Source of the DNA: Thuidium tamariscinum
Taxonomy: Eukaryota; Streptophyta; Bryopsida; Hypnales; Thuidiaceae
Reading direction: 5' to 3'
Length of the DNA stretch: 64,000 bases
NCBI GenBank assembly: GCA_947034885.2
Contig: OX344750.2
Coordinates: forward strand, 36,442,821-36,506,820
Part shown: positions 955 to 54,928 of the stretch, one piece after another
Layout: every line of letters starts with the position of its first letter
Position numbering within the stretch: position 1 is the stretch's first letter
Program-made: the position numbers and the translations under genes
The notes under the pieces: model-generated
Seen by the model: the letters and a program-made list of their open reading frames with translations, nothing else
The model's database searches: none
Told to the model about the DNA's origin: nothing

Positions 955-1830
955 GTAAACTCCTAAAGGACCAAACTGTGTTTTTTGGCAACATAGTGAT
1001 TTTGGGCAACTTACTATAGATGGATTTGTTCTTTTTCTTATAAATTTTCACTCAACATGAGCCCAAGGAGTATCTTTAAAGCCCAACAATTTTCATAACT
1101 TTTGACTGTATGGTTCAATAGTTATTGTGCAATATGTAGTTTTCATTGCTCGGTGGGCAGCCTAGGCAACTAAAAAAACTTCCTCAAAAATCACTTTTTT
1201 TAAAATAATTTTTTTAAATTTACATATAAATGAAAAACTTTGAATGATTTCATTTTAATAAATGAGATGAAATTTGTGGGAGTTTTAGTTTGTGGGTAGT
1301 TATAGGATGTCTACTCAAAAATAAACTTTGAAGTCCTTTTTTAAATATTTTTCAAAAAATATATATGTTGGATGTATATTATTTATTACAACATTTTAAC
1401 CTTTAGGATTGGCATTTTTCAATTCTATGAATAATTTGTTAATAATTTAGTATTTTGAATCATATTCTATTTTTTGCTACTTACTATTTTTTTCCTACAT
1501 GTTGTACAATTCCAATTGATTTGAAAATTTTCAAGAATGTAGCCAACTTAACTTGAAGAACAAAATCAAAGATTAACAACCATTTTGGACGTTTATTCAT
1601 ACAAATGTTGAGTTGTCTGGGTTTTCATAGGGATAAAAAAAGGATTTTAGTCACTTCAAACATTAATATCTTGCAATCTACATGGCGGAAATTTCTAAAA
1701 ATTTTCTACATCTATTCAAACTAGTGTACTAAAAGATACTATGGTTACATTTGTCCAAGAAAAATTTCTAAAATTTAGTAGTTTTCCTAGAAATGATAGG
1801 TTTGGAGCGGTTTTGGTAAAAAACATGATT
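955..1830. mobile_element. Degraded member of the TTAA-flanked element family (long subfamily)
   Basis: The left end reads GTAAACTCCTAAAGGACCA, close to the TTAACCCCTAAAGGACCA end of the intact copy at 35706-36640, and continues with the shared subterminal TTTTTTGGCAACATAGTG. The interior also follows that copy in reverse orientation, including the subterminal stretch CCTAGAAATGATAGG near 1785-1800. The far end is eroded, so the right boundary is approximate. No protein-coding capacity is visible. Confidence 0.55.
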
Positions 1831-30900: not shown

Positions 30901-32134
30901 TTGAATACAAATGAGACTTTATTTCATTGCAGCAGTAACACATGGGGTACCAGACTCTAATTGTGTGTTAGACTTTAATTTCTAGATTTTCTTCTGTTTT
31001 TCCATTTGAGCTCTGCAAAATATTTGATCTCCAAATTCTTGCCAAGAAATAGTAGAGACTGATTAGGCGTCACATTGTTGCAGGGAAATACACTCCCCAA
31101 TACATTTGGTTGCAGGCAGCCCTTGCGGCAGTGGACAGGAAAGTGACGCCATGGCTGATCGTCTTAGTCCATTCTCCGTGGTACAACTCATACAATTATC
31201 ACTACTTGGAGGGCGAGACCTTGCGAGTCGTATTCGAGCCTTTCATTGTAGCTGCTAAAGTTGATCTTGTGTTTGCTGGCCATGTTCATGCCTACGAACG
31301 ATCTGTAAGCTCTTGCGCCCTTTTTCCTTATTTTCAATTTCCTTCTAGTTTGTTTGGTACATCTCTTCAGTTCACTTGCTATTAACCCCTAAAGGCCAGG
31401 AGTCCCAAATTTGACCACACGTTTCTTGTAGCATCATATGGTTATATTTTGAGGAGATCGTATGCAACTTTTTTTTGTCAAGTTTTATGTATTCTTTGAC
31501 CTACACATGCAATGTATTTCATTGATTCTAGGTATATAAAATTTGGGCCCAGGTGATTTATATTTTTCTCAATATGATCATGAATTAGAGTTGGTCATTT
31601 TCGAACCGTGAGTTGTGTTTTAAACTTTTTAACCTGTTTAATGTGGTACTCTTTTGCTGTTTTTTAACAGTGGACCACTTCATGCTAGACCAGAGTCTAA
31701 CTGTGGTACCCTGTAATTGCAGTATCCGGTTTCAAATATCAAATACAACATAACCAACGCGCTCTGCACTCCAATAATAGACCCAGCATCTCCAGTCTAC
31801 ATCACTATTGGTGATGGTGGTAACATTGAAGGTCTTGCAGCAAAGTAAGTCACTCACGAAAATGTTTTGTATTTTTTTCCCTCACTACCTTGATCCTCAA
31901 AAAAAGTCTTTTGGGGGGATCAATTTTTTGATGCAGTGCAATACGTTTTTCTTGGTTGGTTTCAGCTACACAGAGCCACAACCCAGTTACTCAGCGTTTC
32001 GGGAAGCCAGTTTCGGCCATGGCCTGTTGGACATCAAGAACCGTACAACTGCGGTGTGGACATGGCACAGGAACCAGGACGGCGAAGCTGTCTCAGCAGA
32101 CTCTCAGATCATTCGCAACAAGATTTTTGGTTAG
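27937..32134 (+). CDS. PAP: Secreted purple acid phosphatase (plant high-molecular-weight type)
   Basis: Hydrolyses phosphate esters with a binuclear Fe-metal centre; plant members act in the apoplast or vacuole in phosphate scavenging. Eight exons join in phase: 27937-28137, 29257-29454, 29585-29699, 30230-30453, 30727-30865, 31084-31304, 31723-31844, 31966-32134, giving 462 residues, normal for the PAP10/PAP12/PAP26 class. Residues 1-25 form a signal peptide (hydrophobic [15 protein letters not shown], then TTAEE). All five metal-binding blocks are present: GDLG (172), GDLAYQDNY (199), GNHE (236), VLVHSPWYN (319) and GHVHAYERS (358). The first 150 residues form the fibronectin-like domain. 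It lies 2.8 kb downstream of the ligase gene on the same strand with no sign of co-regulation. Intron 3 carries a repeat shared with the ligase gene. Exact PAP subgroup is not resolved. Confidence 0.93.
29868..30180 (+). repeat. Intronic repeat shared with the ligase gene
   Basis: Inside phosphatase intron 3; the partner is at about 16500-16775. Shared landmarks are listed with that copy. Spacing between them is conserved to within tens of bases, which argues for a mobile or duplicated origin rather than chance. Confidence 0.45.
31382..31405 (+). mobile_element. Lone left end of a TTAA-family element in phosphatase intron 6
   Basis: TTAACCCCTAAAGGCCAGG starts at 31382 and matches the family end in all but one of its first 16 bases. 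No matching right end (CCTTTAGGGGTTAA) was found before the intron ends at 31722, so this is either a truncated insertion or an old copy with a lost end. Confidence 0.4.
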
Positions 32135-35589: not shown

Positions 35590-36950
35590 TACCCACCTTA
35601 AACATACAATGGCCACACTATCCCACCTAAGGGCAAAACACCCATTCCCGCACCTATTCCTTGCAATGGACTGTAGATTCATCCAAATGCGTCACTAGAC
35701 TTCCCTTAACCCCTAAAGGACCACAACTATGTTTCCACCAAAACTGCTCCAAAACTGTCATTTCTAGGATAGCTATCAAATTTCAGGAAAAAAAACATTT
35801 TTTGACATATGTAACCGTAGGATCTTTTACTGTACTAGTTTGGGAAGATGTAGAAAAAATTTCAGAAATTTCCACCATGTAGATTGCAAGATATTAGCGT
35901 TTGAAGTTACGAAAATCATTTTTTTTCCACTGCGGAAATCCGGGCAGCTGCACTTTAGAAGGCCACATTTGTATGAAAAAATGTTCAAAATGGTTGAAAC
36001 TCTTTGGATTCATTCTCCAATTCAAGTTGGCTACATGCTTGAAAATTTTCATATCATTTGAAATTGTGCAACATGTACAAAAAAAATGGTAAGTAGAAAG
36101 AAGTAGAGAATGATTCAAAACACAGAAATTGTAACAATTTATTTATTGAATTGAAAAATACCAATCCCAATGGTTCAAATGTTGTAATAAACAACCTTAA
36201 CCCAATGTTTTTATTTTTTTTTCAAAAATATTGAAAATTGAGTAAAATAAAGGACTTCAAAGTTTATTTTAGAGTAGAGAATCCATAACTACCCACAAAC
36301 TAAAATTCTTCATAACTTTTGATTCATTAATCCAAATGGAATGATTCAAAACTTTCCATGTATATATAAATCTATAAAACCAATTTCAAATTTTTATTTC
36401 CAAAAAAAGTGATTTTTTCTGATCTGCCCGAACTGCCCGAGTTGAGAAACAAACAACATTTTATGCCATAACTTTTCAACCATGAAGTCAAAAGTCACGA
36501 AAATTGTTGGGCTTTGAAGATACTCCTCGTCCACACCTTCTATTAAAGTTTGGTTCCAAAATATGGAAATCTCTAGCCACACGTACCTGCCCAAAATCGC
36601 TATGTTGCCAAAAAAGGCATGTTGGTCCTTTAGGGGTTAATGTGTTCGCCACATGTATGATTGTAATTTGTTGACGCAATTGAAGGACACATAGGGAAAT
36701 TTGGTTGGCTGAGTGCTGATTTTCGCAAGGTTCAGTTTTGGGGGCACCTACAGGACGGTTCCACAGGTCTAGGGAGCCAAGACTTTGAAAATTTGTAGAA
36801 ATTACATATTGTATCCGAAAAATCTAATTTAAAAAAAAATTCACTTGCAAATACTAGAAAAATATCATTTTTAGAAAACGCTGCCTCCAACTATGCTGAA
36901 TTCCTTATTTGGACGGTTTTGGGTGTTTCCACTGTATCCCACTTTCAGTC
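35590..36950 (+). repeat. Dispersed repeat, copy 2, split by a TTAA-flanked element
   Basis: The left part (about 35590-35705) and right part (about 36641-36950) together match copy 1 at 14560-14965 in order and orientation, including AATTTGTTGACGCAATTGAA against AATTTGCTGACGTAGTTTGA and GACGGTTCCACAGGTCTAGG against GACGGTTCCAGTGGTCTAGG. The 935-bp insertion between them is missing from copy 1. Confidence 0.6.
35706..36640. mobile_element. Intact 935-bp TTAA-flanked element with 18-bp perfect ends
   Basis: Left end TTAACCCCTAAAGGACCA (35706-35723) and right end TGGTCCTTTAGGGGTTAA (36623-36640) are exact complements, counting the flanking TTAA. Subterminal sequence is shared with copies at 955, 52588 and 54219 (CATAGCGATTTTGGGCAG or its complement, near the right end here). 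No open frame codes for a transposase, so it is non-autonomous. A TTAA target duplication with terminal repeats starting CCC is the piggyBac signature. It interrupts dispersed repeat copy 2. Confidence 0.75.
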
Positions 36951-36994
36951 CCCAGTTGAGCGTACTGTAGTGGAGTAACTTATTTCATTTTCAA

Positions 36995-37480
36995 TCACGG
37001 AATCTATGTTATTATTAGCAATGAATTTTCATCTTTTTCATTTATTGGCTCTACTTGGGAGACGGGAGACTGCCTTCTAAGAGGTTACCAAGACCTCCAT
37101 CTACAGTTAACTTAACTTTGTAGTAGGAAGTGTGACGACGTCGGTTTGAGTAGACTGTAAGTTAAGTTACTGCCTTCTCCGAAAAGCCCAAGCTGTGCTA
37201 AGGAAGTTTCAAGGCCAACTAATAGGAGCCCCTCCTTGCGTGGCTTGCTGCTTGTTTGTAGAAATCGCTTGAAGTGAAGGTAAACTAGCCCATTTTCATT
37301 TGCAACCCAATTTCACTAATTAGACTAGCCCATTTCCATCATTCTATTTTGGTCCCATGTCTATCTAAAATCCCTCCAATACACTCCATATCTTCATTTT
37401 CCTTTAATCTACAACAAAGTCAAAGTTTCTATGACAAAATCAAGGATTTTATGACAAGTTGGGATGGTTATAGGATGTTT
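36995..37480 (+). repeat. Low-copy repeat, copy A (unoccupied site)
   Basis: Matches 38460-39290 over ATCACGGAATCTATGTTATT, CATTTATTGGCTCTACTT, GTTACCAAGA, GGAAGTGTGACGA, CCGAAAAGCCCAAGC and GGTTATAGGATGTTTATGAG. Here the junction reads CAGTTAACTTAACTTTGTAG, containing one TTAA where copy B carries the 38563-38907 element. Confidence 0.7.
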
Positions 37481-37965
37481 ATGAGATGTTTATAAAATAT
37501 TTAATTTTACAAATTTTTCCAAAATTCCAATCAAAGAAGAAACTAGAGTACAAGACCTCCATTTTATTAGTTGGGCTCAAATTCAAAACATGTTGTTTTC
37601 AAGGAGAAATTTCAGATTTACTCAATTTCTCAAAATACACTAAAAAGGCAAATTTTGCCATCCGTTTTTCTTAATTACTTCTCAACTACATGAAAAAAAA
37701 CATCAACTAGAGTAAGAATTCAATTGGACATTCTATGTAACTCAACATGAAAGGTCATTGAAAAAAAATGGGTGAAAAAACTAATGTTAAAGCCCTTCTG
37801 CTAACTCGACAAAGTCAACCGAAAAGCCACAAAATGGCTCCCTGGCGTTAAGGGGTTAAACGTAGAATGGGCACACTATCCCAATTATCCCACTTAATAT
37901 CCCACTTTCAGCCCCAGTTGGTAAAATTCAAGAGGCTTGAGCTTATACTGTAGTGCAGTAACTTA

Positions 37966-38370
37966 GAGCATCTCCACTGGCTGTGTACAGGAGAAGTGCG
38001 GCCAGGGGATGCTTGCCAAGCCATTCAAGAAGGCCGGGCCTGGGCAAATGAATTTCCCCCACCCCAACATGCCAAATAAGCACGTGGAACAATCAATTCC
38101 GGATTCCGAGGCACTTTTCCATGGATTCCAAGAAAACAAGTCAGTAGTCAATGGTAAAGCTTCTTGAAAAGAGGAATTAAATTTAAAGAAAGGCACACCG
38201 AGCCCGTCCAAGGTTTCTCCATTTGGCTGTGCCATCCTTAAATTTGCCCGGGCCCGGCCTTTCTTTTTGCTTGGCCATACCTCCCATGGGACAATTTATT
38301 CACCCGAGCCCGGCCATTCCCCGAGTTGGCCCACTGCCTAAGTCACTACTTGAGGCCCATGGGGATGCTC
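37966..38370. mobile_element. Harbinger-like MITE, 405 bp, TTA target duplication
   Basis: Starts GAGCATCTCCACTGG and ends CCATGGGGATGCTC, imperfect complements, flanked on both sides by TTA (37963-37965 and 38371-38373). A 3-bp TTA/TAA duplication is typical of PIF/Harbinger. The interior has GC-rich inverted stretches (GGCCGGGCCTGGGCAAATGA against AAATTTGCCCGGGCCCGGCC). Non-coding. A 16-bp direct duplication (TTTCATTTTATCCCG) follows immediately. Confidence 0.6.
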
Positions 38371-38459: not shown

Positions 38460-39290
38460 TCATCACGGAATCTATGTTATTATTAGTGATGAATTTTTCA
38501 TCTTTTTCATTTATTGGCTCTACTTAGAGGTTACCAAGATCTCCATCCAATCCATAGTTAATTTAACCCTTAAATGACGCGGGCATTGTTTTTTGGTCAA
38601 TGAAGGACTCTAAAATAGGCTACAGAACGGAAAAACGAAGCTTTTCATCCAATTTTTTGGTATCAAATCTAAGATTGTGTGCCATCATGTACTGCAGAAA
38701 CTAGCTTGCATTAATGTTCTCATAATTTTACAGAAGACTAGATTCTTTTAGCATGCCATGAAGGTTTCATTGCCCAGTTCAAAATTTGTATTGCTGGCTA
38801 AATTCTACGTCCAAAATAGTGACTTTCTCCTTTGGGCTTTCCTCAATTGGTCTTTGTTTACAACCCACTGCTCCCCCACGGTGACCCGCCTGTCGTTTAG
38901 GGGTTAATTTAGTATTAGGAAGTGTGACGATGTTGGTTTGGGTAAACTATAAGTTAAATTAGTGCCTTCTCCGAAAAGCCCAAGCAGTGCTAAGGAAGTT
39001 TCAAGGCCAACTAGTAGGAGCCCCTCCTTGCATTTGCCCATTTCCATTTGCAATCCAATTCCACCAACTAGACTAAACCATTTCCATCACTCTAGTTTGT
39101 TCCCATTTCCATCTAAAACCCAATACAAAAATCCCACCCCCATTTCCCTTTAATCTACAACAAAATCAGGGTTTTTATGACAAAATTAGGGATTTTATGA
39201 CAATTTGGGTAACAAGTCACACCTCATATAGGTAATATCTAGTTGTTAATTAAGTGGTTATAGGATGTTTATGAGATGTTTACAACCTTA
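38460..39290 (+). repeat. Low-copy repeat, copy B (occupied site)
   Basis: Colinear with copy A (36995-37480) apart from the inserted TTAA-flanked element. After the insertion it resumes with GGAAGTGTGACGATGTTGG and continues to GGTTATAGGATGTTTATGAG. The pair shows a duplication that predates the insertion. Confidence 0.7.
38563..38907. mobile_element. 345-bp TTAA-flanked element (GACG subfamily)
   Basis: Left end TTAACCCTTAAATGACGCG, right end CTGTCGTTTAGGGGTTAA. TTAA lies on each side, and the related empty site at 37100-37130 has just one. The left subterminal GTTTTTTGGTCAATGAA resembles ATTTTCTGGTTGATGAA in the copy at 50949, so the two form a subfamily. Non-coding. Confidence 0.8.
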
Positions 39291-40690: not shown

Positions 40691-43685
40691 GTGTCAAAAC
40701 CTATATATTTCAAAATTAGGTGATACCTACAACAAATAGAATTTGGCTCCTTGTCTTAAAATTTAACAAACAAACAAAGAGTAAGATCATGATGTTTACT
40801 TTGAAGATTATACTTTGAATTTTGAATTTGAGATTTATTTATTAGCTAAAGATTAGCATTTAGGTGTTAAAGTTCCTGTGGCTCATACCAAAGACAAGTT
40901 GAAACAAAGTTCTTGGTACCCCAATCACACTTGAGGGAGTTTTTAAAAATCTACCATAGAAAAAACAAAACAAAGTTTACCACTTAGTATATAATAATGA
41001 GTTCCTATGTCTTCTTATTTTTTCAAGAAGACATAGGATTGTTGTCTCTTTGAGGGACATAATAGATTTTCGGAAGGTTCTATGACCTCAATTTTTGGTG
41101 AAACTTTTTGAAACTTTCACATAAGATAGAAAATTATAGTGATTAGCTTTGTGGAAATATCATTTTTATTTCAATTGGTCTTCAGGAGCAAAAGTTATAT
41201 GACAAAAGTCTAGAACTAAACTCAAAGAACAACAAAGTTTTGTTTGAAAGAAAAAATTAAAATTAATTTTTTTTTCAAAAAAATATTTTTTAGTCTACAA
41301 TTGAAGCTTTGATTCATTCTATTTGGACTAGTAATGAGAAAGTTATAGACAATATTGTTTTGGGGGGAAATTTTAGCATCTTCTTGAAAAAGTAACTTTG
41401 ATTACTCATATCTTTCAATCTATACAATCAAACTTCATGAAAAACTCAATTAGATTCTATACAAATGTTTTTTTGTTTTCATAGATGAATTCAACAGAAT
41501 TTGCAGTTTTGAGTGGTTATAATAGAAAAAAGATATCAATCCTTTAGGAGGTAGATACAATCATGGAAAAAATATTGAGTGACTTCAAATGTTAAAATGA
41601 AGTTTTCAACAACTATTTTTATATCTTCCTAATGAAGAAGAACAAAAAATTAAAACCATATTGAAATGGTTTGATGGGGGCTTACTTACATTAACCCTTG
41701 AAGGACAAGGCCTATTATTGAGGTAGTAAAACAAAAATGATCAAATTTTGGATGAATGGGTGCATTATTTGTTCCTTCAATTTTTCTAAAAGTCATTCAT
41801 CAAACACTTTTTGTTTTGTACAAAGTTTTATGATTAATCTTGAAGTACTCTAATGTCCAATTTTTGGACAATGAACTCAATGAAAATTAGTTTTTTTTTC
41901 TCAATACTAATTGGATGAAAGTCATTCTAGTTAGTGGGGACACTTTATCAAGTTATTATCCTATATAATGGTTGGATTTGGTGTTATTAGAGTGCATATT
42001 TTCTAAAATTACAAATGTGAAAGTATATCAAGTGATTGACCAGGACAAAATTGCATTGATTCTAGTTCAAAACCAAAATTATAAATATGAGGTCATAGAT
42101 AAGAAGAGTAAAAAAACTTTAAAAAAAATCACTATACTAAGAAAACATCATTTCAAATCCATTCCAAGAAAATTTACTCAAAAAGTAAAAACATATTAGT
42201 TTGCTTGTAATTGAATTTAAATAAAAAGAATTTAGAGATTTTCATTTTAAATTTTATAAAAAAATATTCGTGATATCATAGGTGAATCTAACTAAGTATA
42301 TGGATGGAACCTAAAAGTCAATCTACAACTTTTAGTTGCATCTCAATTCTAAAATATTTCTTCCAAATAGTACTTTATAATGATTTTTTCCAAACCACCA
42401 ACCCTCAAGAAGACTCTAGATGCTTAGAGAGTAAGAGACTTGCCATTAGTAGGTGCAATTAGAGTTTCTTGATAGGTGGGTGGGTTTTACAAATGAATTT
42501 TTGCTTGTCAAATGCCATCATCAACAAAGTCTAATGCCTTCCAATAAGTTTTAACCTTATAACACCAGATGGGTTCACATGGAAATTAAATCATCCTTTT
42601 GGATGGTTCCATATGAATCATTTGATTAAGAGAATCCCAAGAATATTTGTAGACATCAAACTAATGTGCAAGACCTCTTTATTTTCCACAAAATTCTGAG
42701 GGTGAACACATGCAAACACTTTTAGGTTGTTGCACATTCTTTTACATGGAGAAGCAAGCTTACCTACCTTACCTACTAGATGACTTGTTTTAAAAGTGGT
42801 CATCTAGTTTGGAAGGTAAATAAGCACCTCATACTTAAAAATAAGACTATTTTTTCAAGCTTATTAGTTGGTTTACAAAATAATACTTGGTTGATTGGTG
42901 ATTGATTAAAGCTTGAACTACTCTTGGTGCAAAGTGTTGGGCCTATGCACTAAGAGATTTTTTTGCATGTTAGAGAGGTGCATTGAGTGGTCATTTATAT
43001 ATAATATGTCAACTTCCAACACTATTTTCCAAAAAATGTTCTTCAAATTGGCCCTACCTACAAACTCTATTACCGAAAGGTTTCTACTAGAAGGGGGTGC
43101 ACTACAAAACCTCTTGAGCACATTACTGAACTTCTATATCATTCTTATTTCCAAGTTATTTTTTCAAGCTTGCAAACTAAAGAATTGGCTGAATGATGGT
43201 TGATTATTGGCATTAGATGAAATTTGAGGGCATTAGAAGACTACAGTCTCCTGGATTGTAGGAATGCAGTTTCTGCCACGAGAATAGGAATCCTACACGG
43301 TTGAGAGACTACCACGTCATTAATTTCTTTAAAAAAAAATTTGGACATTTTTTCATATTTTAGGACCCCAATTTTTTCTTGGTTCGTGATGGCTTGACAG
43401 AGGCCAACGATATTGGAAACCATTTTGGGAATAGATCCGAAACAACCCTCTAGAGTCCTCAAATTTCTTCTAATGGCACATCACTCGGCTTTTTTCGCCG
43501 CGTTAGCTTACATATTGGCCCGGTGGGAAAGTACAGTACTTGTTCAAGGAATAAGACAAAAGAGGCTTCACCGTTTGTCTTGTCGGTGTGGGCAAGCAGG
43601 AATGGAGGAGGAGTTTCACTAATTCTGGTGAACAATCTCATTGGTGGAGACTCATCAAACTTGAGAAACTTGAAAATGTGTGATT

Positions 43686-43807
43686 TTCTTATTGCATCCC
43701 TCCAATCCACTTGGTCCACATGAAAGTGCAAAGACTATTTTTTCTTTTCTTATTGTATCCCTCCAATCCACTTGGTCCACATGAAAGTGCAAAGACTATT
43801 TTTTCTT
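43686..43807 (+). repeat. 61-bp tandem duplication
   Basis: Two adjacent near-identical units; ATCCCTCCAATCCACTTGG recurs 61 bases apart (43696 and 43757), followed in both by TCCACATGAAAGTGCAAAGA. Only a C/T change and small differences at the junction separate them. Confidence 0.75.
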
Positions 43808-50948: not shown

Positions 50949-51177
50949 TTAACCCTTAAACGACGCCCAAGTCATTTTCTGGTTGATGAACTTCAGGGAA
51001 TCTTTTTATGTAGGACAGAATTGCAATCATTCATCCTCAGAATTAGGGGTGAAAAAGGAAGATCTTCTATAGTTCTTTGACTTCTAAAATGTGTTTTTAG
51101 ATTTTTTTGAATCAATGATTCCCACAGTATCAAAATTCCTCAATTCCATGGCCACCGGCTCGTCATTTAGGGGTTAA
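50949..51177. mobile_element. 229-bp TTAA-flanked element (GACG subfamily)
   Basis: Left end TTAACCCTTAAACGACGCC, right end GCTCGTCATTTAGGGGTTAA. Same ends and subterminal sequence as 38563-38907, but shorter. TTAA sits on both sides. Non-coding. It abuts, within 30 bp, the perfect 143-bp tandem duplication. Confidence 0.75.
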
Positions 51178-52587: not shown

Positions 52588-53073
52588 TTAATCCCTAAAG
52601 ACCAACTAAATTTGGCAACATAGTAATTTTAGGTAAGTACATGTGATTTAAAGATTTTTATATTTTGATCCCAAATTTTAATTGAAGGTGAGGAGAAATA
52701 TCTTTTATACGCACTAAAATTTGGGACATTTGAAAATATAAGCTAAAATTTATAGCCTAATATGTATTTTTTTAAAAATAAATGGGTAGTCTAAGCAAAT
52801 TGGAAAAAGTCACTTTTTTCAAAAAGTAAAGTTTGAAATTATTTTTTTCTTTCATTTGCAGTATGGTGTAGTAAGCTTTTTAAATTTTAAATTTTTCAAA
52901 AGGTGATTTTTTAAGAAGTTTTTTGAGCTACGTGAATTGTCCAAAGATGAAAAAAAATCACATATCATGCAAAAACTTTTTAACCATGTAGTCAAATATT
53001 ATGAAAATTGTTAATGAATTGCCCAAAATTTCTATATTACCAAAAAAATCCAATTTGATCCTTTAGAGGTTAA
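52588..53073. mobile_element. 486-bp TTAA-flanked element (long subfamily, internally deleted)
   Basis: Left end TTAATCCCTAAAGACCAAC, right end TTGATCCTTTAGAGGTTAA, diverged complements. Both subterminal regions carry a TTTGGCAACATAG-type motif (left) or its complement (right, CTATATTACCAAAAA), as in 35706-36640 and 955. Half the length of the intact copy, non-coding. Confidence 0.6.
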
Positions 53074-54218: not shown

Positions 54219-54928
54219 TTAGTCCCTAAATGCCCAAATTGCATTTTTGGCAACATTAATAGTGATTTTGGAAAGCTTATTACAAATAAAGTTTTGTTTT
54301 GTTTCTTTGAAATTTTCACAATTCACACAGCATTAAATTTGAAGAGTAGTTGCACGGCACAACAATTTTCATAACTTTTGAATAAATAATTAAAAAATTA
54401 TTGTAAAAGATGTCATTTTCATTCTTTAGTCGGCAACTTGGGTGACTCAAAAAAATTCTTCAAAAATTAATTAATTTTTTAAAAATTTTAAATTGTTTAG
54501 AGATTTATATATATATATATATGTATGTGTGTGTATGTGTGAAAAGCTTGGAATCATTCCATTTTGATTAATGAAATGAATGTGTTGAGGAGTTTTAGTT
54601 TTAGGTTAGTTGTGGATTCTCTATTCTAAAATAAACTTTGAAGTCCTTTATTTAAATCAATCTTCAATATTTTTGAAAAAATATTAAAAATATAGGTTTG
54701 GATTGTTTATTAAAAAATTATAACGATTGAGATTGACATTTTTCAATTCCTTAATAAACTATTAACAGTTTAGTATAATTTTGAATCATCCTCCACTTCT
54801 TTCTATTTACTACTTCTTTTCTATATGCTAAACAATTCCAAATGATCTGAAATTTTTCAAGCATATAGCCAACTTGCCTTAAAAATGAATCCAAAGAATA
54901 ACAGCCATTTTGGATATTTTTCGACACC
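54219..54928. mobile_element. Truncated member of the TTAA-flanked family
   Basis: Begins TTAGTCCCTAAATGCCCAAA and continues with TTTTTGGCAACATTAATAGT and an interior colinear with 955-1600. It stops in the middle of the family consensus near CAGCCATTTTGGATA, so the right third is missing. A microsatellite has expanded inside it. Confidence 0.5.

Follow-up and report, generated by a model that had tools for sequence, protein, structure and literature searches.

We find that the 345-bp insert at positions 38563-38907 of the window (the whole 64,000-bp stretch that was analysed, C2:36442821-36506820 in a moss assembly of 363 Mb in 19 contigs) is very probably a non-autonomous MITE of the piggyBac superfamily residing in a moss genome, because it has a TTAA target, the ends of a repeat family, and an end type in common with full-length elements that encode a PF13843 transposase. 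A sequence-only reading of this DNA had suggested piggyBac on account of the TTAA duplication and the CCC ends, and the proposal is supported by TTAA-flanked copies, by empty sites, and by the PF13843 elements described below. piggyBac, a cut-and-paste transposon best known from animals, is a major element there and is in wide use for gene delivery. The superfamily itself is known; mosses are a host group in which it is hardly documented. The host is most likely a moss judging from a PsaD exon of 95 aa, at one of two PsaD places in the assembly: its best PDB matches are 7ksq, 8htu, and 6l35 (187 to 185 bits), which are chains from Physcomitrium patens, and a higher sum is reached only by 9vfj, in which three PsaD-like stretches score 113-116 bits each.

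Read directly, the body of the insert (window 38567-38903) is CCCTTAAATGACG...TGTCGTTTAGGGG with a TTAA on each side, and the length of 345 bp counts the body and both TTAAs (Table 1). The insert sits in copy B of a direct low-copy repeat; some 1.5 kb upstream of the insert lies copy A, where the same flanks enclose one TTAA. When the element and one TTAA are taken out of copy B by a script, what is left aligns with copy A through the junction, and a BLAST search using the joined flanks of copy B spans the insertion point (window 36994-37461, 73% overall). The coordinates and the description given by the sequence-only reading are therefore right, with TTAA on both sides of the insert versus one TTAA in copy A. 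We orient the insert by its right end, which matches that at the right (3′) side of an element with a transposase.

The same comparison could be read the other way around, as a deletion in copy A or an assembly error, instead of an insertion in copy B, and there are indeed further indels that distinguish the two copies. Against this, the 345-bp unit, with its edges unchanged, recurs at many further places, and there are single-TTAA empty sites for three other TTAA elements. We regard a deletion or an error as scarcely credible.

Table 1. Positions in the window of the insert, its empty site, and other TTAA elements.
Feature	Position	Strand	Evidence or remark
Left TTAA target duplication	38563..38566	+	Read directly; TTAA in 21/21 copies read
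337-bp non-coding body of the piggyBac-type MITE	38567..38903	+	Imperfect TIRs CCCTTAAATGACG.. / CCCCTAAACGACA..
Right TTAA target duplication	38904..38907	+	Read directly; TTAA in 17/21 copies read
The one TTAA at the empty paralogous site (copy A)	37112..37115	+	Alignment; BLAST across joint
Low-copy repeat, copy A, with no element at the insert site	36994..37461	+	Alignment and BLAST
Low-copy repeat, copy B, with the 345-bp insert	38462..39207	+	Alignment and BLAST
End similar to that at the left of the 5.1-kb element with a transposase	37820..37859	-	83% over 41 bp, E 5e-4
MITE of 229 bp, end type as in the insert	50949..51177	+	TTAACCCTTAAACGACG / TTAACCCCTAAATGACG
935-bp MITE of another TTAA family	35706..36640	+	TTAACCCCTAAAGGACC ends
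Diverged copy of the 935-bp family	958..1817	-	73% identity
End piece of the 935-bp family	52588..52846	-	68% identity
Internal piece of the 935-bp family	54540..54921	-	80% identity

A DNA search of the assembly with the 345-bp insert reports 45 matches including the insert itself (40 of 91 candidates were scored), some of them two pieces of one copy, and the non-self matches have 67-91% identity. We read the 20 best of the 44 non-self matches with 1 kb of flank and, together with the window copy, these make 21 copies. All 21 have TTAA on the left and 17 have it on the right; the other four right sides (TTAG, TTAC, TTTA, and TTCA) are each one base off. The 15-nt flanks vary by eye between copies, and the base just outside the TTAA is C, T, or G on the left (6, 12, and 3 copies) and any of the four bases on the right. 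The copies are 8-17% away from the majority sequence, and because of that we call the family old; transitions make up 61-84% of the differences, as expected for old, methylated repeats.

Two more insertions of this family can be compared with an empty paralogue, and in both cases the empty site has a single TTAA: L016 against L021 (80% identity) and L026 against L028 (72% identity). The comparisons of L026 with L012 (the same as L005) and with L018, in which the alignment is poor at the joint and has no TTAA, were left uncounted. The TTAA had been read as the duplicated target and not as part of the terminal repeat, and each empty site that we count has one TTAA.

One empty site is not sufficient to fix the target, because an element duplicating TA or TTA leaves the same empty site. 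Thus, the insert could be a PIF/Harbinger or a Tc1/mariner MITE in which a 3-bp (TTA/TAA) or a 2-bp (TA) duplication mimics TTAA, and a TTA-flanked insert with a different end (GAGCATCTCC) is found just 0.2 kb upstream of the 345-bp insert, as a PIF/Harbinger reading would have it. The genome-wide counts of ends speak to this question. The exact 17-nt end TTAACCCYTAAAYGACG, preceded by the full TTAA, occurs 604 times (vs. once for the reversed pattern), and the same end with A, C, or G as the first base occurs 10 times. The outer T is then nearly obligatory and the base before the TA is not free, while the base outside the TTAA is; hence the target is TTAA rather than TA or TTA. The CCC ends and the association with PF13843 also argue against the two superfamilies, to which we assign an extremely low probability. 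As for target duplications other than TTAA, which the sequence-only reading had named as contrary evidence, the copies read and the 604 vs. 10 counts both point to TTAA.

The left end is CCCT in 20 of the 21 copies and CCAT in the other one. The right end is CCCCT in most copies, that is, it starts with CCC and does not strictly follow CCYT, and it has C at positions one and two in 19/21 and 20/21 copies. The two majority ends form a TIR of about 13 bp with one mismatch. A passage of PMC10175614, worded for Teratorn, gives the piggyBac rule as TIRs of 12-19 bp that begin with CCYT. A TTAA duplication would equally fit a MITE of the Kolobok superfamily, for which PMC9587614 describes TTAA duplications, a presence in chlorophytes and rhodophytes, and termini 5′-RR and YY-3′. 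Those termini disagree with the 5′-CC left end present in 21/21 copies and with the C-rich right end, and ends similar to those of the insert are found on PF13843 elements. A Kolobok assignment is very unlikely, and we keep the piggyBac assignment for the insert.

The sequence-only reading had also suggested looking for a piggyBac transposase, and that search is positive. The profile PF13843 (DDE_Tnp_1_7) produces 659 first-look candidates in this genome, and all 116 that were scored pass the cut-off (best E-value 5.7e-80); the same profile has no match in 14 control genomes. A full-length element at C2:46049281-46054376 measures 5,096 bp including both TTAAs, has an open frame of 1,023 aa, and ends in CCCC on the left and CCCT on the right. 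Eleven of the 116 scored matches have the 1,023-aa frame. In all eleven, the left end TTAACCCCTAAACGCCGGCAGCGCC is found 2,612 bp from the domain, and in the nine examined with flank, the right end TTAACCCTGAAACGCCGGGCGGGT is found about 1,284 bp past the domain. The joined flanks of four insertions were searched: three report their own flanks or one-sided matches only, and one, an insertion of a 1,023-aa-frame element at C9:5.33M, has empty paralogues, two of which (L078 and L087) read TTAA and the third (L079) TTGA.

Over 3.9 kb, the C2:46049281-46054376 element has an identity of 100, 99.97, and 100% to three other copies, and this identity begins at the left TTAA or at most 4 bp from it. 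Because these copies are nearly identical, some complete piggyBac elements probably moved recently. On the other hand, not all transposase loci look so complete. A TTAACCC end is found at least ~800 bp past the domain at 25 of 40 loci and is absent at the other 15, so many transposase copies are truncated, different in their ends, or longer than the stretch examined. Where ends are found, TTAACCC...GGGTTAA are the own ends of the PF13843 elements.

The frame of the 5.1-kb element (991 aa in the locus searched) matches PF13843 with an E-value of 5.5e-79 and, in the PDB, matches the "piggyBat transposase" 9c0f (3e-27) and the "Transposase" 6x67/6x68 (9.6e-23); we take 6x67 to be the Trichoplusia ni protein. 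In an alignment of seven moss transposases, two of them nearly identical, the residues D144, D249, D365, and D368 (A1 numbering) are invariant in all seven, and they sit in motifs aligned with 9c0f and 6x67. These are, we assume, the catalytic residues of the piggyBac transposase. By inspection of one element, there is a Cys/His-rich C-terminal tail, CIVCGQ...CPGCHAHVCKGAC, which may correspond to the cysteine-rich domain at the C-terminus of piggyBac transposases. The six other transposases are 40-73% identical to the first one, that of the 5.1-kb copy, and because the identity is so low, several piggyBac transposase lineages exist side by side in this genome. The N-terminal half of the 1,023-aa frame has no Pfam match. 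In the C2:46.05M element, an open frame of 285 aa (L049:2419-3276) starts ahead of the 1,023-aa frame and runs into it in a different reading frame; it too lacks a Pfam match, and may represent a first exon or another protein.

Could these transposases be contamination from an animal or a fungal symbiont, with nothing to do with the moss MITEs? Animals are where piggyBac is best documented. Yet the scored matches are on contigs C1-C10, which are 24-54 Mb long; one transposase copy (L042) occupies the terminal TTAA of a copy of the 935-bp MITE family, and another (L054) lies downstream of another copy of that family. Contamination has a negligible probability in our view. In all, Kolobok, PIF/Harbinger, mariner, a deletion or assembly error, and contamination were each considered and rejected, and we retain a piggyBac MITE next to resident moss transposases.

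How close are the ends of the insert to those of the transposase-bearing elements? We compared 18 ends from 17 loci (using one of nine identical copies) with 26 bases of the majority right end of the MITE. The right end of the 5.1-kb element (L044) matches in 22 of the 26 bases, followed by L068 and L039 (20), L058 and L033 (19), L073 (18), and L029 and L031 (17); the remaining ten ends match in 9 to 16. Three of the 26 bases match because of how the ends were selected, and 20,000 random 26-mers reach at most 16. Past nt 12, the scores of L044 and L039 are not attained in any of 300 shuffles and that of L068 is attained in 3 of 300, while the scores of the other 15 ends are reached by 20 to 295 of 300. 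Thus, the subterminal similarity to the MITE is rarely reached by shuffles in only three of the 18 ends compared. In a BLAST comparison of the 5.1-kb element with the window, the right end of the insert is found (29 bp, 86%, E-value 0.006). On the left side of the window MITE, the similarity past nt 14 to the left end of the 5.1-kb element is not significant (34 of 200 shuffles are as good).

A transposase with ends matching those of the insert, for which the sequence-only reading had proposed a search, is borne out in the end type and in the right end, and not in full, as no transposase-bearing element with CCCYTAAACGACG at both ends was found among the loci examined. The insert and the transposase-bearing elements share the same end type and the same target. 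Six moss transposase queries against the window report no remnant (best tblastn E-value 0.08), and when viral contigs were scanned with the transposase, three pattern matches and no confirmed relative resulted.

The known piggyBac mechanism proceeds by TTAA overhangs at excision, scarless rejoining, and insertion into TTAA. By analogy, a resident transposase would bind the CCCYTAAACG... ends of the insert, the element would be cut out with TTAA overhangs and be joined to a staggered cut at another TTAA, which would duplicate it, and a later excision would restore the TTAA without a scar. Most likely, the insert was mobilised in trans by a resident transposase. Judging from the copies that are 99.97-100% identical, at least one autonomous lineage appears to have transposed very recently.

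The window and the genome have other TTAA-flanked elements. The 229-bp MITE in Table 1 has the same end type as the insert, and by our own count a spacing of 218-230 bp is found in 14 of 18 close inward pairs of TTAACCCYTAAAYGACG among the matches listed. A search for the 935-bp family gives 10,321 first-look candidates, and scoring 40 of them results in 41 matches: the window copy, 39 nearly full-length copies with 91-96% identity, and a partial copy at 75%. The edges of the 39 are at TTAAs or within a few bases of them, and the four copies read, the window one included, have TTAA on both sides. In the window copy, stop-to-stop frames reach 97 codons at most. An end of this family, TTAACCCCTAAAGGACCA, occurs 4,488 times genome-wide (control 0), and TTAACCCYTAAA occurs 23,907 times (vs. 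367 for the reversed pattern). If there are two ends per element, the elements with TTAA ends are in the order of ten thousand.

At six loci (L009, L015, L018, L028, L039, and L042) elements abut with one TTAA common to both, and genome-wide there are 68 exact back-to-back sites that share one TTAA. From the 23,907 ends and about 2.6 million TTAA sites, as scaled from the window, random insertion would be expected to produce roughly 100 such sites. We do not favor a preference for self-targeting.

Other observations concern the neighborhood. By eye, a MITE-like GAGCATCTCC...GGGGATGCTC lies between TTAs at copy B (window 37966-38370), which to us resembles PIF/Harbinger MITEs. At 43684-43805 there is a 61-bp tandem duplication with directly adjacent units that are 98% identical. 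The window also carries LRR exons, kinase exons, and a purple acid phosphatase exon. Directly after the open stretch with the latter (31056-31382), a TTAACCCCTAAAGGCC end lies at 31382, which may indicate a TTAA element in an intron of the purple acid phosphatase gene; no partner end was seen for it at up to 3 mismatches.

The sequence-only reading had cautioned that there is little evidence for piggyBac in land plants. That agrees with a passage of PMC12732532 (December 2025), which describes a widespread distribution of piggyBac among animals, fungi, and protists but just occasional occurrences among plants, for which red algae are cited. Passages in PMC10140906 and PMC10813416 say that it is known from plants and name no plant there, and PMC10004981 and PMC10794571 include PiggyBac among the MITE superfamilies of angiosperms and among the TIR superfamilies of plants, respectively. 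A fern table in PMC6890710 gives PiggyBac 1,230 fragments and 122 kb. A "piggybac" passage in PMC10619864 turns out to be the word "piggybacking". In the literature searched, a partial collection, we found no report of a native piggyBac in a moss.

A broader reading is that piggyBac forms a large system in a land plant, comprising several transposase lineages of which at least one is still jumping, and that this is essentially undocumented in embryophytes. This takes in the near-identical 5.1-kb autonomous elements, the lineages that are 40-73% identical, and the MITEs in thousands. We would put it at an even chance, a lower figure than otherwise because some passages in the literature do mention plants. 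If true, there would be a native plant piggyBac to study, together with tools for scar-free excision. With its intact, nearly identical copies and its very large load of TTAA MITEs, such a moss genome would firmly extend the host range of piggyBac to land plants, it would become testable whether piggyBac arrived in mosses by vertical descent or by horizontal transfer, and it would provide a native plant transposase to try. The findings also suggest that this class may escape the annotation of plant repeats; to our knowledge, the usual plant pipelines assign TIR elements to five superfamilies, and piggyBac is not one of them.

In comparison with known systems, Kolobok elements have a similar TTAA duplication and differ in the ends, 5′-RR..YY-3′ in contrast with 5′-CC..GG-3′ in the moss. 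With piggyBac (6x67/6x68) and piggyBat (9c0f), the moss elements share the TTAA duplication, the single-TTAA empty sites, and the ends starting with CCC, as well as the PF13843 transposase with its conserved aspartates; the Cys/His-rich C-terminal tail of the one element inspected may be a further resemblance. They differ in that the host is a moss, and in that the 5.1-kb element has a stop-to-stop frame of 1,023 aa, whereas the PDB chains have 594 and 578 residues. Animal piggyBac MITEs are short, non-coding, and TTAA-flanked, with the end type of the autonomous elements resident in the same genome. The moss MITEs are like them in all of these respects, and are unlike them in having a plant as host and in the very large number of ends, 23,907 for TTAACCCYTAAA.
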